DNA from: Methylocella silvestris BL2
GTDB taxonomy: Bacteria > Pseudomonadota > Alphaproteobacteria > Rhizobiales > Beijerinckiaceae
Length of the DNA stretch: 64,000 bases
Reading direction: 5' to 3'
Assembly: GCF_000021745.1 (NCBI RefSeq)
Contig: NC_011666.1
Span: 3,747,001 to 3,811,000, forward strand
Shown here: piece by piece, positions 20,501 through 39,007 of the stretch
Numbering within the stretch: position 1 is the first letter of the stretch
Layout of the letters: each line of letters starts with the position of its first letter
Notes under the pieces: model-generated
Seen by the model: the letters and a program-made list of their open reading frames with translations, nothing else
What the model was told of the DNA's origin: nothing
The model's database searches: none
Program-made: the position numbers and the translations under genes

Positions 20501-20779
20501 GTTGGACGCGGCTCGAGAGCATCGTCCGCGAAGGCGCCCTATCGCGGCAGCGTCGGCGCTGGCTACTCTGGCGTCGATCGAAACGCCGATCACGAAGCGG
20601 GGCTCCGATTCTGTCCGACCAGGATAAGCCCGTGGCTCCTTTTTATCTCTAACGGCAATAGTCAGGCCGTCGGCCGCGCTTCATTCTGCGATCCGCAATG
20701 GGGAGGACATTTGTTCGCAGGAAATCTGCGCGCAAATCCCGCACGCCGACACAAAAATGAACAAGCGGAGCGCGTGAAC

Positions 20780-21904: not shown

Positions 21905-21913
21905 GAGGCCGCG

Positions 21914-23437: not shown

Positions 23438-23449
23438 AAGATCGTTTCC

Positions 23450-24874
23450 ATGAGCATCGACTTTTTTTCAAATTACACCATGTCGATCGACGGCGCCGCC
23501 GCGGCCTCGGCGGCGACGTTCGAGGCTTTCAATCCGGCGACTGAAGAGGTCATCGCGGCGGCTCCCGATGCGAGCCGGGAGCAGCTTGAGGCCGCCGTCG
23601 CCGCGGCCAAGCGCGCCTTTCCAGCCTGGAGCGCGCGGCCGATCGCAGAGCGCCAGGCGCTGGTGGCGCGGATCGGCGACCTTATCGAGGCGCATGCCGA
23701 GGATTTCATGCGGCTGCTGACCCGCGAGCAGGGCAAGCCGCGCAAGGGCGCCGAGTGGGAAATTTTCGGGTCGGCGATCTGGTGCCGGGAAATCGCCAAA
23801 CAGGAGCTGCCCGTCCACATCAGCGAAGAGAGCCAAACGCGCAGAGTGGAGACACGTCGCGAGCCGCTCGGCGTCATCGCCGGAATTACGCCCTGGAATT
23901 TTCCTGTCCTGCTCGCCATCTGGAAGATCGCGCCGGCTCTTGTCGCCGGCAACACGATGGTCCTGAAGCCTTCTCCCTACACGCCGCTTTGCACGCTCAA
24001 GCTCGGCGAGCTGGTTCGCGAGCTGCTTCCCCCCGGCGTTCTGAATATCGTCTCCGGCGGCAACGAACTCGGCGTTTGGATGACGACCCACTCGGACATT
24101 CGCAAGATTAGTTTTACCGGCTCGACCGAAACCGGCAGAAAAATCATGGCGGCGGCGTCGGGCAACATCAAACGCATTACGCTTGAGCTTGGCGGCAACG
24201 ACCCTGCGATCGTGCTTCCGGACGTTGACGTGAAGGAAACAGCCGAAAAGCTGTTCTGGGCGGCGTTTCAGAATAGCGCGCAGTTTTGCGTCGCGGCGAA
24301 GCGCCTTTATATCCACGCCGATATTTACGACGATCTCGCCGCCGAACTGGTCGCCTACGCGAAAACGGTGAAGGTCGGCGACGGCTCCCTGCAAGGCACA
24401 GACCTTGGTCCAATACAAAACAGGATGCAGTTCGAGAAGCTGAAGAACCTGCTCGCTGACGCCAAGACCAACGGTCTGCGCTTTCTACTTGGCGGAGACG
24501 TCACGGACGCGAAAGGCTTCTTTGTCCCTGTCACGATTATCGACAACCCGCCGGAGAACAGCCGCGTTGTCGCTGAAGAGGCGTTCGGGCCGATCCTGCC
24601 CCTGCTAAAATTCGATGACATTGACGGCGTGATCGCGCGCGCCAATGACACCGAATACGGGCTCGCGGCTTCTGTCTGGGGTAAAGATATCAAAGCGGCG
24701 CGGCGGGTCGCCGAGCGTATCGACGCCGGAACCGTCTGGGTGAACGAGGTCCATACCTTCTCGCCGCATGTCGCCTTCGGCGGACATAAGCAATCCGGTC
24801 TTGGCATCGAAAACGCGCTTGAGGGGCTTGCTGAATACACCAACGCAAAGACGCTCGTCGTCAACGCGGCCTGA
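23450..24874 (+). CDS. Aldehyde dehydrogenase (NAD(P)-dependent)
   Basis: A 474-residue ALDH-superfamily enzyme oxidising aldehyde to acid. The catalytic Cys280 is in QFCVAAKR, the general base Glu246 in LELGGN, the NAD motif in FTGSTETG, and the substrate channel block in PWNFPVLL. Length and architecture are complete. It follows the ligase by 12 bases and should act on the product of the alcohol dehydrogenase. Confidence 0.93.
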
Positions 24875-24918
24875 GCCGTGGCGAAATCGGAGCTGCGCTT
24901 GAATCAGAGGAGAACTAC

Positions 24919-26514
24919 TTGAGCGTTTTAACCAGCAGCATCGATCGCGCGGATCCGGTTTTCGCGGCCAACGCCGCGCATAATCGAGGGCTGGTCGAGA
25001 CCTTACGGGATACAGTGGCGATCGCCGCGAAAGGCGGGTCGGACAGCGCGCGCGAGCGGCATGTGGCGCGCGGCAAGCTCCTGCCTCGCGACCGTATCCA
25101 TCGCTTGCTCGATCCCGGCTCGCCGTTCCTGGAAGTCGGCGCGCTCGCCGCCCACGGCATGTATAGCAGCGATGCGGCAGGAGCTGGCATCATCGCCGGC
25201 GTCGGCCGCGTATCGGGCCGCGAGATTATGATTGCTGCGAATGATTCCACCGTGAAAGGCGGCGCCTATTTTCCGATGACGGTCAAGAAGCATCTCCGCG
25301 CGCAGGAGATCGCTCAGGCGAACCGTCTCCCCTGCGTCTACCTTGTGGACTCCGGCGGCGCGAATCTTCCACATCAGGCGGAGGTATTTCCGGATCGCGA
25401 TCATTTCGGCAGAATCTTCTACAATCAGGCGCAGATGTCGGCGGAGGGCATTCCGCAGATCGCCTGCGTCATGGGCAGTTGCACTGCGGGGGGCGCCTAT
25501 GTTCCCGCCATGTCGGATGAGACGGTGATCGTCCGCAAACAGGCGACAATTTTCCTCGCAGGACCGCCGCTGGTGAAGGCCGCCACCGGCGAGGTTATTT
25601 CAGCCGAAGACCTCGGCGGCGCGGATACGCATAGCCGCAAATCCGGCCTCGTCGACCATGTGGCGGAGAATGACGAGCATGCGCTTTTGATTGTCCGCGA
25701 CATTGTCGCGACCTTCAATCGCCCCAAGGCGGTCGACGTCGAAATGATGACGCCGCGTCCGCCAAAGCTCGATCCGCAGGATCTTTATGGCGTCGTGCCG
25801 ATCGATGTTCGCGCGCCCTATGAGGTGCGCGAGGTTATCGGCCGCATCGTAGACGGCTCCGAATTTCATGAGTTCAAGCCGCTTTACGGAACAACCCTTG
25901 TCTGCGGCTTCGCTCGCGTCTGGGGCGCGCCCGTCGCGATTCTCGCCAACAATGGCGTTTTATTCTCGGAGTCGGCGCTGAAGGGGGCGCATTTCATCGA
26001 GCTGGCCTGCCAGCGGCGCACGCCGCTGCTATTCCTGCAAAATATCTCCGGCTTCATGGTCGGCGGCAAATATGAAGCCGAAGGGATCGCGAAGAATGGC
26101 GCGAAGCTGGTGACGGCGGTCGCCACCGCCTCTGTGCCGAAGATCACGGTTCTGATCGGCGGCAGCTTCGGCGCAGGCAATTACGGGATGTGCGGGCGCG
26201 GCTATAGTCCGCGCTTCCTGTTCAGTTGGCCCAATTCGCGCATCTCGGTCATGGGCGGAGAGCAGGCGGCCTCGGTGCTCGCCACCGTCAACCGCGACGC
26301 CGAGCATTGGACGCCGGAGCAAATCGAGGCCTTCAAGGCGCCCATCCGCAAGAAATTCGACGACGAAGGCAATCCATACTACGCCACCGCGCGCCTGTGG
26401 GACGACGGAATCATAGATCCCGTTCAGACTCGCGACGTCCTCGGCCTCGCCCTTTCCGTGACGCTTGGCGCGCCGATCCCCGATCGGCCGCGCTTCGGAC
26501 TGTTCAGAATGTGA
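24919..26514 (+). CDS. Acyl-CoA carboxylase carboxyltransferase (beta) subunit, methylcrotonyl-CoA type
   Basis: A 531-residue carboxyltransferase that moves CO2 from carboxybiotin to an acyl-CoA. The characteristic blocks of methylcrotonyl/geranyl-CoA carboxylase beta are present ([59 protein letters not shown]). They distinguish it from propionyl-CoA carboxylase. The start is TTG 24919, six bases after AGAGGAGA; no ATG fits. It pairs with the biotin-carrying subunit 49 bases downstream. Methylcrotonyl versus geranyl specificity cannot be settled by eye. Confidence 0.9.
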
Positions 26515-26563
26515 AGCCGGCCGATCGCCGGACCCTTTGAACGGCTACGGATCTGAAAGCACG

Positions 26564-28444
26564 ATGTTCGAAAAGATATTGATCGCAAATCGCGGAGAGA
26601 TCGCGCGTCGGATCATCCGCACGGCGAAACGGCTTGGCGTGCGGACCGTCGCGGTTCATTCCGACGTCGACGCCGCCATGCCCTTCGTCGCGGAAGCCGA
26701 CGAAGCGGTCGGCATCGGCGGCGCATCCGCCCGCGAAAGCTATCTCGCGCCGGACAAGATCCTGTCGGCGGCCCGGACGACCGGCGCCGAGGCGATCCAT
26801 CCGGGTTATGGCTTTCTGTCGGAAAACGCCGACTTCGCCAAAGCCGTCGCGGGCGCCGGCCTTGTCTGGATTGGCGCGCCTCCGGCCGCTATCCGCGCCA
26901 TGGGCCTGAAAGACGCCGCAAAGCGCCTGATGCAGAAGGCTGGCGTGCCGGTGACCCCTGGCTATCTCGGCGATAATCAGAGCCTCACGCGGCTGCAAAC
27001 GGAAGCTGATGCGATCGGCTATCCGGTTCTCATCAAGGCGGTGGCGGGTGGCGGCGGCAAGGGAATGCGCAAGGTCGAGGCCGCCGGGTCCTTCGCGCAG
27101 GCGCTGGAGAGTTGCCGCCGCGAGGCCGCCGCCGCCTTCGGCGACGACCGCGTGCTTCTCGAAAAATATGTGCTGAACCCGCGCCATATCGAAGTGCAGA
27201 TTTTTGGCGACTCCCATGGCGGGGTCGTCCATCTGTTCGAGCGCGACTGTTCGCTGCAGCGCCGCCATCAGAAGGTGATCGAGGAAGCCCCCGCGCCCGG
27301 GATGGATGACGAGACGCGCGCCGCCGTCTGCGCGGCCGCCGTCAGGGCGGCGAAAGCTGTGAACTACGTTGGCGCCGGCACGATCGAATTCATCGCCCAA
27401 TCGGACGCCGACGCGCGGGGCGCCGTCCGCGCCGACCGCATCTGGTTCATGGAGATGAATACGCGCCTCCAGGTCGAACATCCGGTGACCGAGGCGATCA
27501 CGGGCCAGGACCTCGTCGAATGGCAGCTGCGCGTCGCCTGCGGCGAACCGCTTCCGCTTAAGCAGGAGGCGCTGGCCATCAACGGCTGGGCGATGGAGGC
27601 GAGGCTTTACGCCGAGAATCCCGCGACCGGCTTCCTGCCCTCCACGGGCCCCCTCGACTGGCTGCGCTTTCCCGATAATGTCCGAGTCGACAGCGGCGTC
27701 GAGCGGTATGGCGAAGTCACCCCGCATTACGATCCGATGATCGCCAAGCTCATCGTCCATGCTCCGACGCGCGCCATGGCGGCGCAGCGCTTGGCGAAAG
27801 CGGCCGGCTCCGTCGAGGCGTGGCCGGTCAAGACCAATGCGGCTTTTCTCGCGCGGGCCGCAAGCGATGCGGATTTTGTCGCGGGCCGCGTCGATACAGG
27901 CTTCATCGACCGCCATGGCGACCGGCTGCTGCCGCCAAAAGATCCTTCGCACGCGGTGCTACAGGCGGCGGCGCGGGCGATGCTGTCCGCAGACGCGGTC
28001 GATCCGTGGCGCGCGCTTGCCGGATTTCGCGCCAACGCCGCGCCCGATCGGCGAATTATCGTCGAAGTCGCCGGCGTCTCCCATGTCGTCGCAGTCGAGG
28101 GGCCACCGCCTTCGGCCCGATTTGCAGAGGTCGGCGGCCAGCGCATCGTGTTCTTTCACGGGGAAGCGTGGCCATTTGGGGCGCCCACCGCCAACAGAAG
28201 CGGCGGCGAAGTGGTTTCGACCGGCGTGATCGTCGCCCCCATGCCCGGCCGGATCGTCGCCGTGGAAATCTCCGACGGCGAAAAGGTCTCGCGCGGTCAA
28301 AAATTGCTAGTGCTGGAAGCCATGAAGATGGAGCACGCCATGACCGCGCCTTTCGATGGCGTCATCGCGCATTTGAAGACGAAGGTCGGCGCTCAGGTCT
28401 CGGACGGCGACGTCCTGCTGAGCGTGGTCAAGGGAGAAGACTGA
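26564..28444 (+). CDS. Acyl-CoA carboxylase biotin carboxylase/biotin carrier (alpha) subunit
   Basis: A 626-residue protein with an N-terminal biotin carboxylase (FEKILIANRGEIARR, ATP-grasp loop KAVAGGGGKGMRKV, catalytic block MNTRLQVEHPVTE), a spacer, and a C-terminal biotinyl domain with Lys588 in EAMKMEHAM. It carboxylates biotin with ATP and bicarbonate and delivers it to the beta subunit just upstream. ATG 26564 starts the conserved N-terminus. Its TGA overlaps the ATG of the MaoC gene by one base, indicating tight co-translation. Confidence 0.93.
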   Translation: MFEKILIANRGEIARRIIRTAKRLGVRTVAVHSDVDAAMPFVAEADEAVGIGGASARESYLAPDKILSAARTTGAEAIHPGYGFLSENADFAKAVAGAGLVWIGAPPAAIRAMGLKDAAKRLMQKAGVPVTPGYLGDNQSLTRLQTEADAIGYPVLIKAVAGGGGKGMRKVEAAGSFAQALESCRREAAAAFGDDRVLLEKYVLNPRHIEVQIFGDSHGGVVHLFERDCSLQRRHQKVIEEAPAPGMDDETRAAVCAAAVRAAKAVNYVGAGTIEFIAQSDADARGAVRADRIWFMEMNTRLQVEHPVTEAITGQDLVEWQLRVACGEPLPLKQEALAINGWAMEARLYAENPATGFLPSTGPLDWLRFPDNVRVDSGVERYGEVTPHYDPMIAKLIVHAPTRAMAAQRLAKAAGSVEAWPVKTNAAFLARAASDADFVAGRVDTGFIDRHGDRLLPPKDPSHAVLQAAARAMLSADAVDPWRALAGFRANAAPDRRIIVEVAGVSHVVAVEGPPPSARFAEVGGQRIVFFHGEAWPFGAPTANRSGGEVVSTGVIVAPMPGRIVAVEISDGEKVSRGQKLLVLEAMKMEHAMTAPFDGVIAHLKTKVGAQVSDGDVLLSVVKGED

Positions 28445-28893
28445 TGGCCGGCCGATGGTTCGACCAATGGCGCGTCGGCGACCGCATCGTCCATGATATC
28501 CGCCGCACCGTGACCGAAACGGATAATCTCCTTTTCTCGACCATGACGCATAATCCGCAGCCGCTGCACCTCGACGCGGAAACGGCAAAGGCCAGTGAAT
28601 TCGGCCGCATTCTCGTCAATGGCACATTCAGCTTCGCGCTGATGATCGGACTGTCGGTGGGAGACACGACGCTGGGCGTGCTCATCGCCAATCTCGGCTA
28701 TGATAAAGTCAAAATGCCAAAGCCCGTCTTTATCGGAGACACGATGCGCGCCGAAACGGAGGTTCTGGCGCTGAAGGAAAGCCGGTCGCGCCCTGAGGCC
28801 GGGGTCGTCACCTTTGCGCATCGTTTGATTAATCAGCGCGATGAGATCGTCTGCCAGTGCGAGCGGGCGGCGCTGATCCGGAAATCCTCATGA
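28444..28893 (+). CDS. MaoC-family enoyl-CoA hydratase
   Basis: A 149-residue single hot-dog hydratase. The MaoC catalytic block is present as MTHNPQPLHLD with downstream EFGRILVNGTF. It is expected to hydrate an unsaturated acyl-CoA. It lies between the carboxylase and a CitE-type lyase with start/stop overlaps on both sides. The same set of four occurs in the M. tuberculosis leucine operon (accD1, accA1, Rv2499c, Rv2498c), where the MaoC protein is placed after methylcrotonyl-CoA carboxylase. By analogy it should hydrate 3-methylglutaconyl-CoA. Confidence 0.88.
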   Translation: MAGRWFDQWRVGDRIVHDIRRTVTETDNLLFSTMTHNPQPLHLDAETAKASEFGRILVNGTFSFALMIGLSVGDTTLGVLIANLGYDKVKMPKPVFIGDTMRAETEVLALKESRSRPEAGVVTFAHRLINQRDEIVCQCERAALIRKSS

Positions 28894-29726
28894 GGCTGCG
28901 CTCGCTTCTGTTCGTTCCGGGCGACCGGCCGGAGCGCTTTGCCAAGGCGCTGGCCAGCGGCGCCGACGCCTTGATCCTCGATCTTGAGGATTCCGTCGCG
29001 GCCTCGCGCAAGGGGGAGGCGCGGGCAGCCGTCGCCGCCTTTCTCGCCCCGAGCGGTGCGAGATCCGCGACGCTGTTCGTGCGGATCAACCCTCTTGGCG
29101 GCGAGATGGCCGACCTTGACCTCGCCGCCGCCCGCGGCGCCGATGGGATCGTCCTGCCGAAAGCGGAGGGTGCGGGCTCGATCGCCGATCTCGACCGGCG
29201 GCTTGGAGCGGATCGCGCCATGATCCTTCCCATCGCCACCGAAACGCCGGCTGCGGTGTTCGCGCTTGGCTCCTATGGCGGCGTCACGCCAAGGCTGTGC
29301 GGCCTGACATGGGGCGCCGAGGATCTCCCGGCGGCGATCGGAGCTACGACAAGCCGCGAGGCGGATGGAAGCTATACGGCGCCCTATCAGCTTGCCCGTT
29401 CGCTCGCCCTGTTTGGCGGGCACGCGGCGGGCGTCGCCGCAATCGAAACGGTCTTTCCGGATTTCCGCGATTTGCACGGGCTGTCCCTCTATGCCGCCAG
29501 AGCGGCGCGCGACGGCTTCACAGGCATGCTGGCGATCCACCCGACGCAGGTCGCCGTGATCAACGCGGCCTTCACGCCGCCAGAGGCCACGCTCGCGGAG
29601 GCGCGCCTGATCGTCGCCGCGTTCGCGGCGAATCCTGACGCCGGCGCGCTTCAGCTGGCGGGACGGATGATCGACGCCCCGCACCTGAAACAGGCGAGGC
29701 GCATTTTGGCGGCGGCTGGAGAATAA
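28890..29726 (+). CDS. CitE/HpcH-type beta-hydroxyacyl-CoA lyase
   Basis: A 278-residue TIM-barrel aldolase-type lyase. It shows RSLLFVPGDRPERF, ADALILDLEDSVA (Mg-binding acid), the Arg in VRINPLGG, the metal-binding Glu region PIATETPAA, and GMLAIHPTQVAVIN. These are CitE/Rv2498c hallmarks. It cleaves a beta-hydroxyacyl-CoA; in this operon HMG-CoA to acetoacetate and acetyl-CoA is the likely reaction, by analogy with Rv2498c. ATG 28890 overlaps the MaoC stop (ATGA). Confidence 0.88.
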   Translation: MRLRSLLFVPGDRPERFAKALASGADALILDLEDSVAASRKGEARAAVAAFLAPSGARSATLFVRINPLGGEMADLDLAAARGADGIVLPKAEGAGSIADLDRRLGADRAMILPIATETPAAVFALGSYGGVTPRLCGLTWGAEDLPAAIGATTSREADGSYTAPYQLARSLALFGGHAAGVAAIETVFPDFRDLHGLSLYAARAARDGFTGMLAIHPTQVAVINAAFTPPEATLAEARLIVAAFAANPDAGALQLAGRMIDAPHLKQARRILAAAGE

Positions 29727-29862
29727 ACGAACGATCGGCCCCAGGCCGGGATAAAGTCGAGCGCCCTTATTATCTGTCGAAGATATGGCGCAGGCCCAAG
29801 GATCGACGCTAATTTCATCGCCACGAACTTGCGAAGCAAGATTGAAAATAAGGGAGAAATGC

Positions 29863-30855
29863 ATGATTGGGGCTGCGGACGCCGAATTTCATCCAGCTGA
29901 TCCGGACAAGCTAAATTGGGCGGAAACCAATTTCTTCGGCTTCTATAATGCCGAGGAGAGATTAAACATTGGCGTATACGCCCTGTTCCGGACCAATCTG
30001 CGCACCGTCAATTCGACCATCTGCATGAATTCCGGCTTCGCAATCGCGCCTTGGGAAGCCGATTACGTCGACTGTCAGTCCGTCATTCCTATGGCCCCTG
30101 ACTGCAGTCTGCTCGACTACGGGCTCGCCAATGGCCTGCACATCCGCTGCGTTGAGCCAAACATGGCTTGGGAGATCAAATTCGACGACGGCGAAGGCAC
30201 TAAGATCGACGTCGTCTACCGATCGATCATGCCCGCATTCGATATTCACGATCCGGTCATGGATCCAATGGTTGGCCGCCATGACGGCGAATTCGCCTGG
30301 GGAACCGCCTACAATGGCCATTTTGACCAAACTGGCCACTACCAAGGCGCCGTGACCCTGCGCGGCCGTACGATCCCGATCGACTGCATTTCCACCATGG
30401 ATCACAGCTGGGGTCCAAGGCCGGAGCGCGGCGCCCCCAACATGAGCTGGCTGCATGCGCACTTTTCGAAAGATCTCGCGGTTCACGCCATCTTCAGCTT
30501 CGATCCCGAGCAGAATGGGTTGAAGCTCTCCTTGACGCACGGCTATGTTGTAGAGCGCGGCGAAATCTTCGGTCTCAAGGCGGGCTCCGGACAGGCGGTG
30601 CGCCCGCGCGACCGTTACGCCGACAGCGTCGAGCTTTGGCTCGTCGATCGCGCCAATCGGGAGTGGAATCTTTCCGCAAAAGGGCTGACGAGCTTTCCGT
30701 GGCAATGCTGGGCCAATATGGTTGCATTTAACGTGCTCGGACGGTGGGAGATGAATGGTCTCGTCGGCTATGGCGAGATTCAGGACTTCTTCGAGCTGCC
30801 GCAACTGACCCGGTTGAACTCCATCCCGGCGACGCGCATCGCCGCGGCGGCGTGA
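29863..30855 (+). CDS. Lipocalin-like AttH/CrtC-superfamily protein
   Basis: A 330-residue soluble beta-rich protein without signal peptide. The motif TMDHSWGPRPERG near its middle and the two-lobed pattern are typical of uncharacterised proteins related to AttH and to the CrtC hydroxyneurosporene synthase (carotenoid 1,2-hydratase) fold. CrtC adds water to an isoprenoid double bond; whether this protein does chemistry or binds a hydrophobic ligand is unknown. ATG 29863 has AAGGGAG upstream. It is 136 bases after the lyase and 5 bases before the phosphatase, so it belongs to the same operon. A substrate-preparing hydratase/dehydratase role is an inference. Confidence 0.6.
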   Translation: MIGAADAEFHPADPDKLNWAETNFFGFYNAEERLNIGVYALFRTNLRTVNSTICMNSGFAIAPWEADYVDCQSVIPMAPDCSLLDYGLANGLHIRCVEPNMAWEIKFDDGEGTKIDVVYRSIMPAFDIHDPVMDPMVGRHDGEFAWGTAYNGHFDQTGHYQGAVTLRGRTIPIDCISTMDHSWGPRPERGAPNMSWLHAHFSKDLAVHAIFSFDPEQNGLKLSLTHGYVVERGEIFGLKAGSGQAVRPRDRYADSVELWLVDRANREWNLSAKGLTSFPWQCWANMVAFNVLGRWEMNGLVGYGEIQDFFELPQLTRLNSIPATRIAAAA

Positions 30856-30860
30856 AGTCG

Positions 30861-31664
30861 ATGGCGCCGCCAATTCGTGCGATTCTGTTCGATCTCGACG
30901 GAACTCTCGTGCAGACCCGGGACGCGTCCTGGGTGCTGTTCGAACGGACCAACAGGAAATTCGCGCTCGGCATCGATGACCGCGAGCAGTTCTTCAAACT
31001 CTTTCGGGACAATCTGTTTGTCGCAGTCCCGCAGGCTTGCGGCGACGAGGAACGCGGGCTTGCGGCGATCAATCATTTCCTCGAGCTTTTGCGCAAAGAG
31101 TATAATCCGCCGCTGGTGCCGGGCATCGCGGATGTCGTCAGGACTCTCGCGGCGCGCTGCGTTCTGGGCATCGTCTCAAGCAACGCGCTCGAGGCGATCC
31201 GGCGGATCGCCGACGACGCCCATATCGCCCAATGCATTGCCCACGTATTCGCAGGCGATATCGAGCCTGACAAACGCAAAAGCATCCGCCAATTCCTCGC
31301 CGATCCGTCATATGCCACGTTGCGCATCGGCTCGCCCGCCTATCAGGAGCGCGCGCCGAAACCGTTCGAGCCCGATGAGGTCGCATTTGTGACAGACACG
31401 GTCTGCGACGTTCGACATGCGCGCGAATGCGGCGTCCGAACGCTTGGCGTCTCATGGGGAATGCACAAGGCGAGCGACCTTATGGAGGCGGGAGCGGAGA
31501 AAGTCGCGGTCTGGCCGCAGGAGATCATCTCCTGGGCGCTGTCGCCGCGGTCAAACGTGATCGAGGAACGCGCGGACGAGGTAGAGCCGCCGCCGGAGAC
31601 AGACCTTGAACCGGTCCTCGAAAAATCCGGCGTCCTGCGCCTAAAAGGACTTCGCGCTGATTAG
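30861..31664 (+). CDS. HAD-superfamily hydrolase (phosphatase-like)
   Basis: 267 residues. Motif I FDLDGTLV (nucleophile Asp and acid Asp), motif II VSSN, and a motif III/IV region FVTDTVCDVRHARECGV (acidic Asp pair, somewhat divergent from the usual GD) place it among HAD phosphatases. A helical cap lies between motifs I and II. The C-terminal ~50 residues are acidic and not conserved in the family. Being encoded directly before a phosphotransfer system, it may remove phosphate from an intermediate or a mis-phosphorylated product (inference). Confidence 0.8.
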   Translation: MAPPIRAILFDLDGTLVQTRDASWVLFERTNRKFALGIDDREQFFKLFRDNLFVAVPQACGDEERGLAAINHFLELLRKEYNPPLVPGIADVVRTLAARCVLGIVSSNALEAIRRIADDAHIAQCIAHVFAGDIEPDKRKSIRQFLADPSYATLRIGSPAYQERAPKPFEPDEVAFVTDTVCDVRHARECGVRTLGVSWGMHKASDLMEAGAEKVAVWPQEIISWALSPRSNVIEERADEVEPPPETDLEPVLEKSGVLRLKGLRAD

Positions 31665-31714
31665 AGCCGCAAGCAAATGCGGTCCAGCGCCACAAACAAC
31701 AAGGAGAGGAAACA

Positions 31715-32131
31715 ATGAAAGTCATAGCGCAAGGATACAACAGTTTCGAAACAAAAAAATCGTCCGAAGGCGAGGTTGTCTACCTGCCAAATCCACAATC
31801 TGTGATCAAGCTAATCCAGAGCGGAAAGCTGAAGGAGCACATATTACTCGTTCAGGGCGGCACGACGACGTTTCTTTCGCCTGCGCTTACTATGGGCGCG
31901 ATCGGCGTCATCACCCTGTCTGGCGCCCCCGAGTCGCATCTGGGAATTCTGTCGCGCGAATTTCAAATGCCCTGCGTCATGACGGCTCATCTCGTCGACA
32001 GCGACACGCGCTATGTCACCGGCGGCGACAATGACGCGCATTTTGGAGCGATGATCAGCCGTCTTCAAGGCAAACGCGTGCGACTCGATTGTAGCGATGT
32101 CGAGCAGGGCAAGATCGTCGAGCTCGATTGA
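31715..32131 (+). CDS. Stand-alone phosphohistidine swivelling domain (PEP-utiliser mobile domain)
   Basis: A 138-residue protein that is essentially only the mobile domain of PEP synthase/PPDK-type dikinases. Residues 59-88 (TMGAIGVITLSGAPESHLG onwards, then MPCVM) align with the phosphohistidine loop, giving catalytic His75 in PESHLG. In dikinases this domain carries phosphate between an ATP site and an acceptor site. It occurs free here, although a second swivel domain is present in the dikinase at 34202. Strong AAGGAGAGG site upstream. Split dikinase subunits are known in phenylphosphate synthase. Confidence 0.82.
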   Translation: MKVIAQGYNSFETKKSSEGEVVYLPNPQSVIKLIQSGKLKEHILLVQGGTTTFLSPALTMGAIGVITLSGAPESHLGILSREFQMPCVMTAHLVDSDTRYVTGGDNDAHFGAMISRLQGKRVRLDCSDVEQGKIVELD

Positions 32132-32175
32132 GACAACAATATAATAAGCAAAAGCAACAGGGCGAGGAAAAAACA

Positions 32176-33585
32176 ATGAGCAGTTACAAGAAGCGTTATT
32201 CCGAAGGCGATGATGGGCTCCGGTTTCAGGATCTCGCCTACGTCGGCAATTTCAAGGGTCAGGAGCCCGTGCGCGACGGCATCGTCGGCGACCGTATCAT
32301 GCGCTCCCGCGCGAAGTCGAAAGTGCTTGAAAAAGTCAGCCGCGAGGACGTCCTTAAAGGTCAATTCACGCTCGACGAGCTGAACGACCTAAACAACTAT
32401 CTCGCCTGGAATATCTGGGACGTTCTGGTTATGCGCGCAACCGAGGGCGTATCCGGTATGATCCCCCGCCAGGAATATGAAATCCTGGCGTTCATGAATG
32501 AATTCTATCGTTGGCCCGAAATTCTGCGCATGACGACCGACGAGATCGGCGCGGAAGGCGTCATCAATATAGGCGCGACGGCTCGGCGGGAGATCGGAAT
32601 CAAAGTGAACGCCGTCCATGACTGGTGCATCGGCGCCGTCGGTTTCGGTATGGGCCGTTGCGGGCTGCTCGCTCTCGAGGCGATCAAGCCGAACGACTAT
32701 GTCGAGGAAAGCAATGAAATTCTGAAATTCATGCAGCGCGTCCTGTGGGGCAAGCGTCAGGACGGCTATATCCTGAATTCTCAGAACCGGTATCGCTGTG
32801 CGATCCACGACAAGGACGTCATCGAGACGCTCGCCTCGCATATTGAGTATTTTGAGCCCGGCAGCGATAAGCACCAGAAGTTCACGCGGTTCAACGCGTC
32901 GGCCGAATTGCTCGCCTTCCTGGACCATTTCGACAACCGACTCGGCCTCGGCGACACGGGCCCGTATGAGCTCGCGGACGGCAAAATTCTCATCATTCGC
33001 GATCTTTTCACGAATGAGGAAGTTTATCACTGGAGCGACGCCTGCGACAACGCCGGCGTCCCGCATTGCTACAGCCTGCTGCTGGTGATCGATCCGGAGG
33101 CGATGAGCCTCGAAGAGATCAGAGTTAACGACATCTCGACGACATTCACGAGGCCAAAAAACTATATCGAGCACATCGTCGGCGGCGCCGTATTCGTGCG
33201 CGAGAAGTGGAATACGCCGATGTCGGAGATCTATCCGATCGCGATCGACAATCTTGAGAAGCGCGTCGAGGGCATCCAGCAGGCGACAATGGGTCTCTAC
33301 AGTAAGCTCGCCCGCATGTCACGGCGCCAGCTCATCACCAATGGCATGTACACCTATTATATCGACATGATCCTGCCTCATCTGCGTCTCGCCGGGACAT
33401 ATGAGAAGGCCTGCGTCGACTATGATTTCTGGGAAATCGATCAGCGCGTCTCCAATTATTATTATGACATCACCAAGCGCGGCTTCGCACAGGCGGTCGT
33501 GCCACAGAAGATATTTTCGGGCGAAGGCTATCTTCCGTTCCCGGACGGAACGGATCTGCGCCGCTCCAAATATTTCTGGAGTTGA
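32176..33585 (+). CDS. Unrecognised 469-residue protein of the dikinase operon
   Basis: I do not recognise this family. It has no signal peptide or membrane segment, is rich in aromatic and acidic residues, and ends in RRSKYFWS. Points to note: RYRCAIHDKDVIETLASH, HWSDACDNAGVPHCYSLLLV and the helical segment EKRVEGIQQATMGLYSKLARM. ATG 32176 with GAGGAAA upstream; 44 bases after the swivel domain and 3 bases before the next gene. The spacing suggests a structural partner. A substrate-binding or catalytic acceptor subunit for the phosphoryl group is a reasonable guess, since the dikinase has a degenerate PEP/pyruvate domain. No function is claimed. Confidence 0.6.
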   Translation: MSSYKKRYSEGDDGLRFQDLAYVGNFKGQEPVRDGIVGDRIMRSRAKSKVLEKVSREDVLKGQFTLDELNDLNNYLAWNIWDVLVMRATEGVSGMIPRQEYEILAFMNEFYRWPEILRMTTDEIGAEGVINIGATARREIGIKVNAVHDWCIGAVGFGMGRCGLLALEAIKPNDYVEESNEILKFMQRVLWGKRQDGYILNSQNRYRCAIHDKDVIETLASHIEYFEPGSDKHQKFTRFNASAELLAFLDHFDNRLGLGDTGPYELADGKILIIRDLFTNEEVYHWSDACDNAGVPHCYSLLLVIDPEAMSLEEIRVNDISTTFTRPKNYIEHIVGGAVFVREKWNTPMSEIYPIAIDNLEKRVEGIQQATMGLYSKLARMSRRQLITNGMYTYYIDMILPHLRLAGTYEKACVDYDFWEIDQRVSNYYYDITKRGFAQAVVPQKIFSGEGYLPFPDGTDLRRSKYFWS

Positions 33586-33588
33586 GCC

Positions 33589-34209
33589 ATGATGGTTTCC
33601 GGCAATCGCGCATCGACGGTATCGCCGCCGGTCGCGCCCTTGATCGACGACAACACATTCGACGTTTTGAACGCCATCTATCTGCACAAGATGGCGACGC
33701 CAAAGCATGTCGCCGAGGTCTCCGAACTCGCCGAGCCCCAGGTTGAGAGCATCCTGAAGCGGCAGCAGAGCGAGGAGGCGGTGATTGATCTTGGCGGCTC
33801 TTTCGTCCTTGGCGAAAAAGGGACCGCAAAGGTGCTCGCCTTCTACCGCGAGGTCTATGCGCCGTTGCGCGCGCAGGCCGGCGTCATCGCCTGGTACGAC
33901 AAATTCGAAACAAGCCTCAACCAGCAGTTCATCAAGGCGGTTTCCGACTGGCAGACCTCCGCGGGAGACGATCGCGCCCGCGAAAAGATGACGAAGCTCG
34001 TCGAACGCATGATCCGAACCTTGCGCCAGATCACCTCCGACGTGTCCCGTTATGAAAAATACGCCAATCGCTTTGCGCGGGCGATGGCGCTTGCCGATCG
34101 CGGCGAAGACGACTTTGTCTGCAAGCCGACAGTGGATTCGATGCACAATATCTGGTTCGAATTTCACGAAGACATCCTCGCTTTGATAGGACGCCCGCGT
34201 GATGTCTGA
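33589..34209 (+). CDS. Unrecognised 206-residue protein, winged-helix-like N-terminus plus helical domain
   Basis: Not assigned to a named family. Residues 20-85 (FDVLNAIYLHKMATPKHVAE, QVESILKRQ, FVLGEKG) look like a winged-helix fold. Residues 95-205 are helical and Arg/Glu-rich, ending in VDSMHNIWFEFHEDILAL. It lies 3 bases after the 469-residue protein and overlaps the dikinase start by 8 bases, so coupled translation and a complex are likely. It could be a linker/regulatory subunit rather than a DNA-binding regulator (inference from position). Confidence 0.6.
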   Translation: MMVSGNRASTVSPPVAPLIDDNTFDVLNAIYLHKMATPKHVAEVSELAEPQVESILKRQQSEEAVIDLGGSFVLGEKGTAKVLAFYREVYAPLRAQAGVIAWYDKFETSLNQQFIKAVSDWQTSAGDDRAREKMTKLVERMIRTLRQITSDVSRYEKYANRFARAMALADRGEDDFVCKPTVDSMHNIWFEFHEDILALIGRPRDV

Positions 34210-36694
34210 GGTGCTTGAAACGACGGCGGCCCGCTTCGTCTGGGACATTCGCGCCCTCGATCCGAGCGACGGCAGACGGTTTGGCGGCAAGGCGACGGGA
34301 CTCGCTCGGATGGTCGCGGCTGGCATTCCCGCGCCCCCGGCGTTCGCCATCGGCACGGACGCCTTCCACGCCTTCCACGCCAACGGGCGGCGCTTGCCGG
34401 ATGACTTGCGCCGCCAGGTGAATGAAGCCATGGCGCGGCTTGGCGCGCAGGCCGGGCGACGGTTCGGCGTCGCCGACGCGGGCGAACTGCCCTTGCTGGT
34501 GTCGGTCCGCTCGGGCGCGCAGGTCAGCATGCCGGGAATGATGGACACCGTTCTCAATCTCGGTCTTGACGCCGGGCTCGCCGCCAAAATGATTGCCTGC
34601 ACAGGCGCGCGCGAATTCGTGATCGATAGCTGGCTGCGGTTCTGGAAAATGTACGCCGAGATCGTGCTCGGCCTCGACGGCGATGATCTTGTTGATGACA
34701 TCGCGCCGCAGCGCGCGGCCGCAATCGGGGGAGAGATCGACCTCGAGACGCTGGAGGCCGCCGTCGTCGCGCATATCCTCTCGCAGGGAGAGGCCGCGCC
34801 GACCGATCCGCGCGCGCAACTCGATCAGACCATTTCCGCGGTCTTCGCCTCTTGGGACAGCCCGCGCGCAAAAGCCTACCGCCAGCATCATGGAATAGCC
34901 GATGACCTTGGCACGGCGGTCACAGTTCAGGCGATGGTGTTTGGCAACGCCGACGACAATTCCGGCTCCGGCGTCGCCTTCTCGCGCAATCCCAATGACG
35001 GCGATCCGGCGCTTTATGGCGAATATCTCGCCGGCCGGCAGGGCGAAGACATCGTCTCGGGGGCGAAGACGCCGATTGATCTCTCCCGATGCGAGAACGG
35101 TTACGCTGAGCTGCGGGCGAAGCTCGACGAGCATTCGCGCGCGCTTGAGCGTCTTTACGGCGACGCCGTCGATATCGAATTCACTGTCGAATCGGGCAAG
35201 CTCTATCTGCTTCAGGTGCGCCCCGCCAAGCGCACGGCCGAGGCCGCCGTCCGCATCGCGGCGGATCTTGTGGAGGAGGGGCTTGTCGATTCGGCCGCCG
35301 GCCTCAAGCGGGTTTCCGCCGAGCAGGTGAAACGGCTGCTGCGTCCCGTGTTCGACCCCGCCAAACTCGCCGAGGCAAGAAGCATCGCAAAAGGCATCGG
35401 CTCATCGCCCGGACAGGCGAGCGGCGTCGCGATTTTCGATTCGGACCGCGCGGCCGAGCGCGCAGCGGCGGGCGAAGCCGTCATTCTCGTGCGGCCGACG
35501 ACGAGTCCGCTCGACATTCGCGGCATGATCGCGGCCGACGGCATATTGACGGCGCGTGGCGGCGCGCTGAGCCACGCCGCCGTCGTCTCCCGCGCGCTCG
35601 ACAAGCCCTGCATCGTCGGATGCGAGACGATCGAGATCGATCCCGAAGAGAAGGTGTTCGTCGCGGGCGGCAAACGCTACCGTGAAGGCGACTGGATCGC
35701 TATCGACGGCGCGAGCGGGCTTGTCTATGCGGGCGCGATCGATCTTATCGCCCCGGCGCAAGGCGCCCGCCGCTTGTCCCGCCTGCTCGAGAAAGCCGAC
35801 GCGCTGTCGCACGCGACGATCTGGACCGCGACCCATAATGGCGGCGAGGCCGTGCAAATGAGGGGAGCCGGCTGCGCGCGCGCATTGACGGGCATGACTG
35901 ATTTCGCCCTTGCGACCGGCTCGATCGAACGACTGATTGACTGCGTCAGCCGGATCGGGCGTCCGAACGCCGCCACGGAAATAGAACTCGGAGAGATTGC
36001 AGGAGCGATCGCCGCGAAAATATTCGAGACCGCTTGCGCGCCGATAAATCATATCCGCCTGCCGAGGCTGGCGTCCGAACGCGCTCGCTCGCTGATACCC
36101 GGCTGGTCCGATCTCGACCCGCGCCTGTTTCTGCCGCTAGGCAACCCGGCGTTTTATCGGCCCCTGCTTCATGGGCTGTCGCAGGCGTCCCTGGATCAGG
36201 ACGCTCCCATCACAGTCTTGATTGGCGGCGTCACAGACGTTGGCGAATGGCGCCGTTTCCGAAATGAGGCTGAAGCGTTTCCAAATCTCGCCGCCGGCGT
36301 CACCGTGCAGAATGTGGCCTGCCTCGACGCAGCGCCTGCAATGCTCGCAGAAGGCGCGACCTTGTGGCTCGACATGGATGAGATCCTTTTATCCGCGCAT
36401 GGATTCGTGCCCGAGCATTATCTGGTTGCGACCGCGCTTGACGATTATGTCCATCAAGGCCTCATGAGCGCCAATCCGCGAAGCGCCCTGAAGCCCTTTC
36501 TCGCCTCTCTCCTGAACAGGCTGGCAAATGCGTCGGACGCCGCCGAACGCGTCGGCGTCGATTGCGGCGCCGGCTGCGATCTCGGCTTGCTCCGCGCTCT
36601 CTACAGGGAAGGCTTCCGGACGTTCGGCGTTCCCCCCTGCAACCGCGAGGTGGTTTGCCTGGTGCTGGGACAGGAGGCTGCATTTAACCTATAG
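34202..36694 (+). CDS. PPDK-like dikinase with degenerate C-terminal barrel
   Basis: 830 residues. The N-terminal ATP-grasp domain closely follows pyruvate phosphate dikinase (GGKATGLARMVAAG, LLVSVRSGAQVSMPGMMDT, GVAFSRNPNDGDPALYGEY, DIEFTVESGKLYLLQVRPAK). The swivel domain has catalytic His458 in GGALSHAAVVSR; the Thr two residues before His in PPDK, target of the PPDK regulatory kinase, is Leu here. The C-terminal ~270 residues correspond to the PEP/pyruvate TIM barrel but are divergent: the terminal block that holds the catalytic Cys in PPDK reads FGVPPCNREVVC, out of register with that Cys. ATP-dependent phosphorylation of something other than pyruvate is inferred. ATG 34202 chosen over GTG 34199. 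Confidence 0.85.
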   Translation: MSEVLETTAARFVWDIRALDPSDGRRFGGKATGLARMVAAGIPAPPAFAIGTDAFHAFHANGRRLPDDLRRQVNEAMARLGAQAGRRFGVADAGELPLLVSVRSGAQVSMPGMMDTVLNLGLDAGLAAKMIACTGAREFVIDSWLRFWKMYAEIVLGLDGDDLVDDIAPQRAAAIGGEIDLETLEAAVVAHILSQGEAAPTDPRAQLDQTISAVFASWDSPRAKAYRQHHGIADDLGTAVTVQAMVFGNADDNSGSGVAFSRNPNDGDPALYGEYLAGRQGEDIVSGAKTPIDLSRCENGYAELRAKLDEHSRALERLYGDAVDIEFTVESGKLYLLQVRPAKRTAEAAVRIAADLVEEGLVDSAAGLKRVSAEQVKRLLRPVFDPAKLAEARSIAKGIGSSPGQASGVAIFDSDRAAERAAAGEAVILVRPTTSPLDIRGMIAADGILTARGGALSHAAVVSRALDKPCIVGCETIEIDPEEKVFVAGGKRYREGDWIAIDGASGLVYAGAIDLIAPAQGARRLSRLLEKADALSHATIWTATHNGGEAVQMRGAGCARALTGMTDFALATGSIERLIDCVSRIGRPNAATEIELGEIAGAIAAKIFETACAPINHIRLPRLASERARSLIPGWSDLDPRLFLPLGNPAFYRPLLHGLSQASLDQDAPITVLIGGVTDVGEWRRFRNEAEAFPNLAAGVTVQNVACLDAAPAMLAEGATLWLDMDEILLSAHGFVPEHYLVATALDDYVHQGLMSANPRSALKPFLASLLNRLANASDAAERVGVDCGAGCDLGLLRALYREGFRTFGVPPCNREVVCLVLGQEAAFNL

Positions 36695-36781: not shown

Positions 36782-39007
36782 GTGGCTGCATCCAGGCTGG
36801 ATCACGCGCATGCAATGCCGCCGCCGCAGGACGCCGGCGCCGATCCGCTGATGGCGCTGGAGGCGCTGACGAAGCGCGTCGCGGCGTCGGTCGAAGGCGG
36901 CTCGCATGGGGTGTTCGCAGAAGCCGAGCGAGCTCTCGCGGAGTTTGCCAAGGCTCGCGCCGTACGTATCCTCGTCAATGCGGCGGGAAGCTGGCGTCCG
37001 TGGCGCCAGCTCGACACGCCGGACACGCCGCGCTCTGATTCGGCGCCCGAACTTGCCCCGGGCGCTCCGCTTCTCGCCGACGACCGCATCGTGGCGACCA
37101 TCCGCGCCGGGTGTATCGTTGCATTGATCGACCACGCCGCGATCGGCGAAGCGCGCCGGCAGGCGCTGAACGTCGCCGCAAATTGCATCGATCTTGCGAT
37201 CACGACCGGTGAGCGCCAAGACAGTTCAAGTCGCAATGCGACGGAGATGCAGGCGCTTCAGAACGTCGCCGGTCGCATCCTCCAGAGTTCGGATATCGAG
37301 GAGATCCTGCTTCTCGTCAGCCACGAAACCAAGCGGTTGCTGGCGTCGGATATTTGCGGCGTGCTGATGCGCGTCGGCGACGAAGTGGTGATGCGAAATT
37401 GTGTCGGACATTTTTCGGCGGAGCTGGCCAAGCTGCGCATGAAGCCCGGCAAGGGCGTCGCCGGCCGCGTGCTCGCCACCAGCGAGCCTTTCGCGGTCGC
37501 TAATTATGTCGAAAGCGACGCGATCAGTCCGGATTTCATTCCCCTCGCGCGGATTGAGAAGGTGCGCTCGGCGGCGGCGGCGCCGATTGTTTCGCGTGAC
37601 GCGGTGATTGGCGTCCTTGAAGTATGGCGGCGGCGTCCTTCGACCTATACCGAGCAGGATGCGAACCTGCTTCTCGCGCTGGCCGGACTTGCTTCGCTTG
37701 CGATTGTGAACGCGGAACTCTTGCAATCGCGCGCTTGCGCCGCCGCGGAGCTCGCGGTCGTCAACGCCACGCTCGCGCAACGCTGCGCCACGATCGAGAA
37801 TTCAGCCAAATTTCAGGAAAAAATCGTACAGCTGATGTTGAGCGGACGGCCTCTTTCTGTCCTGGCGGCGACGACGGCGGAGCATGTCGAGGGAACCGTG
37901 CTGGTGCTCGATCGCGACCTCGCGATCGAGACGGCGCAGCCTGACCCGGGAGAAAGCGCGGGCGCGATACTTGATCTGGCGCGGTCCATCATCAAGAAAG
38001 TCAACCGCATTCCCGATCAGGCGATCGTTATGGGCGCGGGGGACGATCATGTGCTGGCGCAGCCTGTTCTCGCCGGCGCCGAATTGCTCGGTTGGATTGT
38101 CTGGCGCGGCGACGCCGAGCCGTCCGAGACGACGAGGCTGGCGTTGAGCCATGTTTCGCTCGCGGTCGCGATGCTGCTGCTCGAACGTCGCAGCGCCGCC
38201 CGCGCGCGGGCCGAGACCGTCCAGGCGGTGCTCTGGGATCTGCTTGAGGGCGATGAAGTGGTTAGCGCGGCGGCGCTCGATCGCGCAAGGGAAATGAACG
38301 TGTCTTTCAAGGGTAAGGTCTGCGTGCTTGTCGCCACGCTGGAGAGCTTCGGTCCTGGCAAGGACCGCGGCGCCGGCCTGCCCGACGGGACCACCCATGA
38401 TCGTGTGCTTGACCGCGCCCGTCTCGCCGACCTCGGACGCAGCGCCCATATGGTGGGCTTGCGCGGCGACCAGCTTCGCATGATCTGCAAGGCCGCTGAC
38501 GCGGAGTCGCTTTGCGCCGCGGCGGCTCGGATGATCCACGACATCAGGCTCGAGGCCTCGGGCGTGTCGCTCAAGGCAGGCATTAGCGGACCATGCGGCG
38601 ATCTGCGCAAGCTGCCGGCATGTTTCCGCGAAGCGACCGTCGCTCTCGAGGTGGCGCAATATCGTCATGGCCAGCCCGTCGCCTGCTACAGCGACATTGG
38701 CGTACTCGGCCTGTTGATTAACTTACGCGGCAAAACGGATATCCGGCGCGTCAGCGAGGAGATCCTTGGCGAGCTTACTTCGGAGCCTCAGCCGTCGCGC
38801 AAAATTCTGTTGGAGACGATGCAGACATTCTTCGAATGCGACTGCTCGCAGATTGCGACAGCCGCCAAGCTCGGAGTGCATCAGAAGACCATCGCCTATC
38901 GCCTTGGCAAAGTGTCCCGCCTTACAGGCCTCGATCTCGCGCGGCACCAGGATAGGCTGCTCGCAGATATTGGGATTCGCCTGAGCCTGACGCTTGAAGC
39001 GAAATAA
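36782..39007 (+). CDS. GAF-domain PucR/CdaR-type transcriptional regulator
   Basis: A 741-residue cytoplasmic regulator. A GAF sensor spans about residues 155-310 (ILQSSDIEEILLLVSHETKR, GVAGRVLATSEPFAV, AAAPIVSRDAVIGVLEVW). A GGDEF-like/PucR middle domain (ALDRAREMNVSFKG onwards) and a C-terminal PucR helix-turn-helix (FECDCSQIATAAKLGVHQKT, AYRLGKVSRLTGLDL) follow. Regulators of this build commonly activate adjacent catabolic operons in response to a small effector bound by GAF. The GTG start at 36782 has GAGGAAA upstream. It is 87 bases after the dikinase gene on the same strand, so it is likely the operon's own regulator. Confidence 0.88.
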   Translation: MAASRLDHAHAMPPPQDAGADPLMALEALTKRVAASVEGGSHGVFAEAERALAEFAKARAVRILVNAAGSWRPWRQLDTPDTPRSDSAPELAPGAPLLADDRIVATIRAGCIVALIDHAAIGEARRQALNVAANCIDLAITTGERQDSSSRNATEMQALQNVAGRILQSSDIEEILLLVSHETKRLLASDICGVLMRVGDEVVMRNCVGHFSAELAKLRMKPGKGVAGRVLATSEPFAVANYVESDAISPDFIPLARIEKVRSAAAAPIVSRDAVIGVLEVWRRRPSTYTEQDANLLLALAGLASLAIVNAELLQSRACAAAELAVVNATLAQRCATIENSAKFQEKIVQLMLSGRPLSVLAATTAEHVEGTVLVLDRDLAIETAQPDPGESAGAILDLARSIIKKVNRIPDQAIVMGAGDDHVLAQPVLAGAELLGWIVWRGDAEPSETTRLALSHVSLAVAMLLLERRSAARARAETVQAVLWDLLEGDEVVSAAALDRAREMNVSFKGKVCVLVATLESFGPGKDRGAGLPDGTTHDRVLDRARLADLGRSAHMVGLRGDQLRMICKAADAESLCAAAARMIHDIRLEASGVSLKAGISGPCGDLRKLPACFREATVALEVAQYRHGQPVACYSDIGVLGLLINLRGKTDIRRVSEEILGELTSEPQPSRKILLETMQTFFECDCSQIATAAKLGVHQKTIAYRLGKVSRLTGLDLARHQDRLLADIGIRLSLTLEAK

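Follow-up and report, generated by a model that had tools for sequence, protein, structure and literature searches.

In a 64,000-nucleotide stretch of the Methylocella silvestris BL2 genome (contig NC_011666.1, positions 3,747,001 to 3,811,000; referred to as the window), a module of six genes was analyzed that encodes a DUF7064 protein, a HAD phosphatase, a free phosphohistidine (swivel) domain, proteins of 469 and 206 amino acids (469-aa and 206-aa proteins), and a protein resembling pyruvate, phosphate dikinase (PPDK). This module very probably encodes an alcohol-phosphorylating dikinase. Its substrate is likely a tertiary alcohol; for 2-methyl-3-buten-2-ol (MBO) in particular, belief and doubt are about balanced. 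We are equally divided over the full scheme, in which a four-part ATP-dependent dikinase (31715-36694) together with a phospholyase would convert MBO to prenol and further to 3-methylcrotonyl-CoA. An initial annotation of the window had already proposed a dikinase system; this interpretation is supported by the present results, and the DUF7064 gene and a link to bacterial microcompartments, both missed there, are added.

The genes from HAD to PPDK-like had been described as consecutive with small gaps or overlaps. All five open reading frames (ORFs; 30861..36694) were found again intact on the + strand at the same coordinates, separated by 50, 44, and 3 bases and then overlapping by 8 bases. 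They close a compact + strand run of 13 genes (20774..36694; Table 1), which we infer from the spacing to be one transcript. The genome is a single contig of 4,305,430 bases. Alcohol and aldehyde dehydrogenases and a biotin carboxylase had been noted upstream; their Pfam matches proved to be real, and a CoA ligase, a carboxyltransferase, a MaoC protein, and an HpcH/HpaI protein were found as well. The DUF7064/7065 gene (29863-30855), left unnamed by the annotation, belongs to the unit.

The PPDK-like protein matched the PPDK models TIGR01828 with 534 bits (cut-off 843) and NF004531 with 513 bits (cut-off 456, N-terminal part), but two general phosphoenolpyruvate (PEP) synthase models with 108 and 82 bits only; in a PDB sequence search, PPDK ranked first. 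The motif GGxxSHA was kept in 70 of 71 relatives, the remaining one being truncated. The genome has a separate gene for a housekeeping PPDK (L001), to whose PEP/pyruvate barrel the 315 C-terminal residues of the PPDK-like protein can be aligned. RTEHMFF, SFGTNDLTQ, and CGEHGGD of the housekeeping enzyme, which we take to be PPDK active-site motifs, occur neither in the PPDK-like protein nor in five aligned relatives, and a Pfam search gave no PEP-utilizers_C match. Owing to this loss of motifs, the protein is unlikely to use pyruvate. Plain PPDK was hence rejected, although NF004531 exceeds its cut-off; the formation of PEP from pyruvate had been named in the initial annotation as a result that would speak against its proposal.

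The free swivel carries GxPxSH in 83 of 86 relatives and SH in 2 more, 1 being truncated. A conserved histidine on each of two separate proteins suggests a His-to-His relay. A possible transfer of this kind resembles the phosphorelay from enzyme I to HPr of the phosphotransferase system (PTS), with the difference that the relay of the module is deduced solely from the two conserved histidines.

The 469-aa protein is the most conserved member of the module (median identity 75% in the 67 close loci defined below). It gave no Pfam, NCBIfam, or PDB sequence match. Its predicted model (pLDDT 93.2) had no fold match in the PDB by Foldseek or VIA-align (310 chains), both being whole-chain searches that do not prove a new fold. 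For the 206-aa protein, no Pfam family was found above threshold (sub-threshold match, E 0.18); nucleoporin chains were matched weakly (E 1e-4), which was judged a coiled-coil coincidence, and a relationship to nucleoporins was rejected. Both proteins had been called unrecognised, and apart from this weak match they are still so: the profile searches of both and the structure prediction of the 469-aa protein, suggested earlier as checks, assigned neither to a known pathway.

The order swivel-469-206 was found on one chain in 10 fused proteins and swivel-469 in 3 more, whereas PPDK was part of none of these 13. Therefore, the swivel, 469-aa, and 206-aa proteins look like the acceptor side and the PPDK-like protein like the ATP side, as far as sequences can tell; the 469-aa protein would bind the alcohol. 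In the fusion protein of Rhodococcus opacus, the 206-aa part has a sub-threshold TrmB-like helix-turn-helix match. On a plasmid of R. opacus B4 (L009:2428-15759), the fused swivel-469-206 gene lies in a cluster with P450, alcohol dehydrogenase, aldehyde dehydrogenase, and CoA ligase genes, together with two APH/EcKL-like kinases and a tyrosine-type phosphatase, which suggests a different alcohol as the substrate of that fused module.

The distribution of the module was determined in one genome per species (84,980 species) using a five-row alignment of the 469-aa protein. The scan yielded 115 loci, 80 of which were kept; 67 with at least 65% identity to the 469-aa protein were termed close loci. 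Module genes were counted by tblastn and microcompartment genes by ORF families, a match anywhere in the locus being taken as presence. The 67 loci are not independent: L045 and L046 share a genome, and L016 hardly differs from the window. The swivel gene was present in all 67 close loci, the 206-aa gene in 61 (1 absent despite sufficient flanking sequence, 5 not testable), the PPDK gene in 60 (2 absent, 5 not testable), the HAD gene in 54 (6 absent, 7 not testable), and the DUF7064 gene in 53 (6 absent, 8 not testable); all six genes occurred in 49. Co-occurrence across genomes, on which the initial annotation had wanted its proposal judged, was thus borne out. Within 1 kb of the 469-aa gene lay 66 swivel, 61 206-aa, and 59 PPDK genes; for the DUF7064 gene, the distance was at most 3 kb in 27 loci and larger, up to 7.8 kb, in the others that have it. 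The 13 more distant loci contained the swivel gene in 13, the 206-aa gene in 9, the PPDK gene in 6, DUF7064 in 2, and HAD in no case. The module recurs, whole or mostly, in Alpha-, Beta-, and Gammaproteobacteria, Actinomycetota, and one Vulcanimicrobiota metagenome-assembled genome (MAG), where the PPDK and 206-aa genes are missing. The grouping of these genes is beyond chance.

Among 60 genomes, the window's own and 59 relatives, the 469-aa gene was found in 1 other genome. Furthermore, an even sample of the class was analyzed (385 genomes including the window's own). Matches to the 469-aa protein above 700 bits occurred in 4 genomes, one being the window's own, and DUF7064 was matched at more than 280 bits in all 4. 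Two further genomes reached this DUF7064 score but lacked the 469-aa gene, 4 others had no more than weak 469-aa matches, and 16 of the 385 had a DUF7064 match of any strength. One genus supplied 2 of the 4 genomes with the 469-aa gene and both genomes with DUF7064 only. One alignment (A3) comprised the window and 48 of the 80 kept loci; the tree of the 469-aa protein had 85 rows and was built without L011, L012, L119, sequences of fewer than 250 aligned residues, and the loci from the 385-genome sample. A contig labelled as a Klebsiella pneumoniae MAG (L067) carries part of the module, and its 469-aa protein groups with that of another gammaproteobacterial MAG; it probably is a mislabelled or mixed bin.

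The predicted model of the DUF7064 protein had 25-phosphosteroid lyase (AttH superfamily) as its best structural match. Both share a fold, with 16-19% identity in structural alignments, and neither a profile nor a single-sequence comparison gave a hit between them. The lyase takes phosphate off a tertiary ester, which its kinase makes from a tertiary alcohol. Going by the model, the DUF7064 protein may be a lyase or isomerase of a tertiary phosphate. The pair of 25-hydroxysteroid kinase (25-HSK) and 25-phosphosteroid lyase in anaerobic sterol degradation is comparable, as a tertiary alcohol is phosphorylated by ATP and the phosphate is then removed. However, the reaction of 25-HSK is a reversible transfer of the gamma phosphate with ADP through a ternary complex, and tert-butanol is hardly turned over, whereas a dikinase is proposed here. 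As a homologue, 25-HSK was rejected on its authors' account (sequential mechanism with ADP); it is set apart by description only. In one alphaproteobacterial genus, 3 or 4 DUF7064 genes lie in tandem (L117:11889-15035; L118:10214-14320), with or without the dikinase nearby. A tyrosine-phosphatase-like protein has matches in at least 15 loci (L035, L039, L042, L050, L052, L081, and others) and also adjoins the Rieske oxygenase of Methylibium PM1; the pathway may thus have two phosphatases.

The following sequence of reactions is proposed. The PPDK-like protein would bind ATP and phosphorylate the histidine of its own swivel, from which the phosphoryl group would pass to the histidine of the free swivel. 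The latter would hand it to the alcohol sitting on the 469-aa subunit, with the 206-aa protein tying the acceptor module together. With a tertiary alcohol, most likely MBO, the product would be MBO phosphate. The DUF7064 protein would then strip the phosphate from the tertiary ester with an allylic cation as intermediate; the product would be prenol, or else dimethylallyl phosphate for the HAD enzyme to hydrolyze. Prenol could be converted to 3-methylcrotonyl-CoA by the alcohol dehydrogenase, aldehyde dehydrogenase, and CoA ligase or, in many relatives, in a microcompartment with an acylating aldehyde dehydrogenase; carboxylase, hydratase, and lyase would finally yield acetyl-CoA and acetoacetate. 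Because ATP is spent, the isomerization would be irreversible and could allow scavenging at low concentrations. The same argument on ATP cost is made for HpeHI in the discussion of PMC12167813.

The carboxylase of the run points to a C5 compound. Its beta subunit best matched methylcrotonyl-CoA carboxylase (MCC) beta of P. aeruginosa (3u9r, 782 bits) in the PDB, with AccD1 at 773 bits and geranyl-CoA carboxylase at 468; chains of propionyl-CoA carboxylase (PCC), apart from the one discussed below, reached at most 272 bits. NCBIfam gave no specific name, the best model being mmdA, far under its cut-off. No other beta subunit of this kind is encoded in the genome; the next match has 33% identity. 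An MCC-type carboxylase suggests a C5 substrate. L080, from Pseudomonas sp. NFACC02, continues after the module with a gene for a related carboxyltransferase (65%) and with enoyl-CoA hydratase, biotin carboxylase, and HMG-CoA lyase genes, the last scoring 470 bits against a cut-off of 246. Carboxylase genes are also present in L018 and L119; in M. silvestris TVC, with a 99% identical 469-aa gene, the carboxylase is encoded elsewhere in the genome and not in the locus. The carboxylase of L120 is about equally similar to MCC and to the PCC-named chain and was therefore left uncounted. Second copies of the 469-aa gene in L120 (5073-14370) and L121 (11-12574) adjoin acyl-CoA dehydrogenase genes, with no swivel or PPDK gene in those stretches; L120 additionally has an OYE-type reductase and the MCC-like carboxylase, L121 a gene resembling acetophenone carboxylase or caprolactamase.

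Microcompartment genes were found in 44 of the 67 close loci, many of the others being short contigs; the window itself has none. In the locus of Bradyrhizobium jicamae (L020), EutJ and malate dehydrogenase each exceeded a model cut-off; a CcmP-like BMC protein stayed under that of CcmP, and an aldehyde dehydrogenase nearest to acylating types was likewise under cut-off. EutN, two BMC-domain proteins, and a Zn-dependent alcohol dehydrogenase are encoded there as well. According to PMC4207490 (PLoS Comput Biol 2014), the MIC1 microcompartment "lacks a signature enzyme" and holds an aldehyde dehydrogenase (AldDH), a lactate/malate dehydrogenase, a Zn-dependent alcohol dehydrogenase, a hydrolase, and an MreB-like protein. 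Neighbors of the module in some relatives, L020 among them, match this list; for the three dehydrogenases and the MreB-like protein, the description agrees with L020 by Pfam and NCBIfam and with L053 by ORF families and two Pfam matches. That text names neither a dikinase nor any signature enzyme.

At least two of the alcohol dehydrogenase, aldehyde dehydrogenase, and ligase close to those of the window occurred in 11 of the 67 loci. This soluble set appears in three separate parts of the tree: the Methylocella group, Burkholderiaceae, and Nocardiaceae/Gordoniaceae. We read the soluble set and the microcompartment as alternative routes by which the same alcohol or aldehyde is converted to the acyl-CoA. 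With some reservation, doubt slightly prevailing, we propose that the module is the missing signature enzyme of widespread incomplete-core microcompartments: a four-part PPDK-derived dikinase with a two-histidine relay and a new-fold acceptor would phosphorylate MBO, the DUF7064 phospholyase would form prenol, and the Methylocella carboxylase operon would be a shell-free version.

Several neighbors of the module relate to tertiary alcohols. A Rieske protein is encoded 1.4 kb (L027) and 0.6 kb (L055) downstream of the 469-aa gene, with 62% and 60% identity to the Methylibium PM1 Rieske protein at 502.4-503.9 kb, which we take to be MdpJ, the tertiary-alcohol monooxygenase/desaturase. In L032, homologues of two PM1 mutase subunits (64%, 62%), presumably of 2-hydroxyisobutyryl-CoA mutase, and of a CoA ligase (63%) adjoin the module. 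The plasmid of PM1 itself has a microcompartment locus at 443-457.6 kb with DUF7064, HAD, a short 469 remnant, and a PPDK-like gene (58%); in this copy (L101:12059-17592, record 452058-457591) no swivel and no 206-aa gene were found. A separate, divergent set of DUF7064, 469, swivel, 206, and regulator genes lies at 480-487 kb, and a second PPDK-like gene (49%) at 506.8-509.3 kb; both copies and the Rieske oxygenase are within the same 70-kb region. From this split into PPDK-like and acceptor sets, the two sides appear to be exchangeable. The divergent set, about 23 kb from the microcompartment copy, adjoins B12-mutase genes.

The linalool isomerase paper PMC4791888, which also has MdpJ in its reference list, states that Aquincola, Methylibium PM1, and P. 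putida MB-1 may begin the mineralization of MBO by isomerizing it to prenol, the enzymes being uncharacterized as of 2016. The initial annotation had suggested a small alcohol, tertiary or allylic, or a ketone enol. The alcohol part is strengthened by the DUF7064 fold, the MdpJ-like neighbors, and the MCC-type operon; the ketone part finds little support, one extra 469-aa copy (64%; L121) near the acetophenone-carboxylase-like gene, and acetone activation was rejected.

A number of observations weigh against the full scheme. The carboxyltransferase scored 764 bits with a chain named PCC beta (9tps), which thus ranks beside MCC. The window, L018, and L080 share one clade of the 469-aa tree and hence represent a single evolutionary linkage to the carboxylase, not four; the linkage is restricted to this clade. 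The PM1 acceptor is divergent, and C4 alcohols are also indicated. Furthermore, the soluble set and microcompartment genes occur together in 4 of the 67 loci, so that the oxidation sets overlap; in the tree, the soluble set of Nocardiaceae/Gordoniaceae is mostly accompanied by microcompartment genes, which does not fit a simple replacement.

The same dikinase and lyase might naturally act on a different tertiary alcohol, for example tert-butanol, 2-methyl-1,2-propanediol, or 3-methyl-1,3-butanediol, which we consider unlikely, though worth serious attention. Loss of phosphate from a 1,2-diol would lead straight to an aldehyde; the enzymes would then supply a microcompartment in the manner of an ATP-driven diol dehydratase, and microcompartments do process aldehydes. 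The PM1-like mutase subunits (64%, 62%) and CoA ligase (63%) beside L032, the MdpJ-like neighbors, and the four loci combining both oxidation sets are in line with such a substrate. However, the carboxylase of the window is of the MCC type, and L080 combines carboxylase, hydratase, and HMG-CoA lyase; in addition, the 469-aa protein is 70-88% identical between MCC-linked and microcompartment-linked loci, which suggests one substrate. An improbable reading is a phenolic or ketone-enol dikinase like HpeHI, PpsAB, and CreHI, acting on an aromatic compound or a methyl ketone. Known two-component dikinases do start phenol catabolism, distant relatives of the 469-aa protein (24-27%) lie beside biotin carboxylase and thiolase genes in Rhodococcus pyridinivorans P23, with ORF families shared by Novosphingobium, and the extra 469-aa copy near the acetophenone-carboxylase-like gene would fit a ketone. 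Against this, the operon Pfam matches include no aromatic-degradation enzyme, the ATP-grasp part is of the PPDK type whereas the phenolic kinases resemble PEP synthase, and DUF7064 is present in 53 of 67 close loci; the 469-aa model had no match to rifampin phosphotransferase (RPH) in the whole-chain Foldseek and VIA-align searches, which does not exclude a relation.

Phosphorylation of the primary alcohols isoprenol or prenol for isoprenoid synthesis instead of catabolism is very improbable. Dimethylallyl and isopentenyl phosphate are natural isoprenoid intermediates, and the HAD phosphatase could balance their pool; yet the operon ends in acyl-CoA carboxylation and cleavage, and its relatives have microcompartment genes and an acylating-type aldehyde dehydrogenase. 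Hardly credible, finally, is an ordinary leucine-degradation operon with an unrelated PPDK paralogue adjacent by chance, even though MCC is a leucine-pathway enzyme with its sole such beta subunit here and NCBIfam would name the PPDK-like protein PPDK. The operon lacks an acyl-CoA dehydrogenase, for which reason this reading was rejected; the three PF00441 matches of the genome are outside the window. The alcohol dehydrogenase, ligase, and aldehyde dehydrogenase are foreign to the leucine pathway, and the co-occurrence counts contradict it already, the module recurring across phyla with and without MCC. The distant 469-aa genes (24-27%) of R. pyridinivorans P23 (L011:11260-23565) and Novosphingobium (L012:11719-23885), mentioned above, lie with AMP-ligase, 206-like, PPDK, and carboxylase-type genes, sets reminiscent of the Hpe pathway.

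An alcohol dikinase acting on MBO would resemble several known systems in part. We know of no ATP requirement of linalool isomerase or linalool dehydratase-isomerase, and none of the operon Pfam matches points to an enzyme of this type. As described in PMC4791888, these enzymes likewise convert a tertiary to a primary allylic alcohol. With PPDK (EC 2.7.9.1), the module shares the ATP-grasp part and a first swivel with its catalytic histidine, but the C-terminal barrel is without the three conserved motifs. As in the HpeHI type, the ATP-grasp protein is separate from the protein bearing swivel histidine and acceptor, and catabolism of a small hydroxyl compound would be started. HpeHI, PpsAB, and CreHI have ATP-grasp parts similar to PEP synthase, and the RPH-like HpeH bears its swivel at the C-terminus (J Biol Chem 2025, PMC12167813). 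In the module, a swivel histidine is on the acceptor side (conserved SH; swivel-469 fusion in 13 proteins) as well, but the ATP-grasp part is not of the PEP synthase type (534/513 bits with PPDK models vs 108/82); the ATP side resembles PPDK and has a swivel of its own, the second swivel is free, and the acceptor candidate has no detectable relation. The module is undescribed among the literature matches listed by term searches, which do not cover subscription papers, preprints, and supplements.

If the proposal is true, dikinase chemistry reaches tertiary alkyl alcohols, beyond phenols and pyruvate, and DUF7064 gains a function. Isomerization of an allylic alcohol would be ATP-driven and could scavenge trace plant volatiles, a hint as to how volatile hemiterpenes from trees, as well as fuel-oxygenate alcohols, become food for soil bacteria. 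Named genes would be provided for two published open questions, the source of the aldehyde in MIC-type microcompartments and the enzymes converting MBO to prenol, the latter as posed in PMC4791888.

Table 1. Genes of the run and its flanks in window coordinates, with matches and proposed roles.
Feature	Coordinates	Strand	Remarks
Phenol_MetA_deg outer-membrane protein	19455..20408	+	PF13557 123.7 bits; same ORF family in L016, L017, L080; precedes run
Zn-dependent alcohol dehydrogenase	20774..21904	+	ADH_N and ADH_zinc_N; proposed prenol dehydrogenase
AMP-forming acyl-CoA ligase	21914..23437	+	AMP-binding PF00501 296.7 bits; proposed 3-methylcrotonate-CoA ligase
Aldehyde dehydrogenase	23450..24874	+	Aldedh PF00171 526 bits; proposed prenal dehydrogenase
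MCC-type beta subunit	24919..26514	+	PDB sequence matches, best 3u9r
Biotin carboxylase/BCCP alpha subunit	26555..28444	+	Biotin_carb_N/C, CPSase_L_D2, Biotin_lipoyl
MaoC-type hydratase	28444..28893	+	MaoC_dehydratas PF01575 80 bits; proposed 3-methylglutaconyl-CoA hydratase
CitE-like C-C lyase	28857..29726	+	HpcH_HpaI PF03328; proposed HMG-CoA cleavage
DUF7064/DUF7065 protein	29863..30855	+	proposed lyase/isomerase of tertiary phosphate
HAD phosphatase, 267 aa	30861..31664	+	HAD_2 49.5 bits; proposed hydrolysis of rearranged or misformed phosphate
Free phosphohistidine (swivel) domain, 138 aa	31715..32131	+	conserved SGAPESHLGILSRE; PEP-utilizers PF00391 29.2 bits, cut-off 23.1
469-aa protein	32176..33585	+	no family; proposed alcohol-binding (acceptor) subunit, possibly new fold
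206-aa protein	33589..34209	+	proposed linker subunit of acceptor module
PPDK-like protein, 830 aa	34202..36694	+	PPDK_N and PEP-utilizers; ATP-grasp, swivel with GGALSHAAVV, degenerate PEP/pyruvate barrel
GAF/PucR-type regulator	36782..39007	+	HTH_30 63.4 bits and GAF_2; after run; relative in 28/67 close loci

The outer-membrane protein encoded ahead of the run is a probable uptake channel. Relatives of the alcohol dehydrogenase at 45% identity or more were found in 8 of the 67 close loci, and relatives of the aldehyde dehydrogenase at 55% or more in 12.

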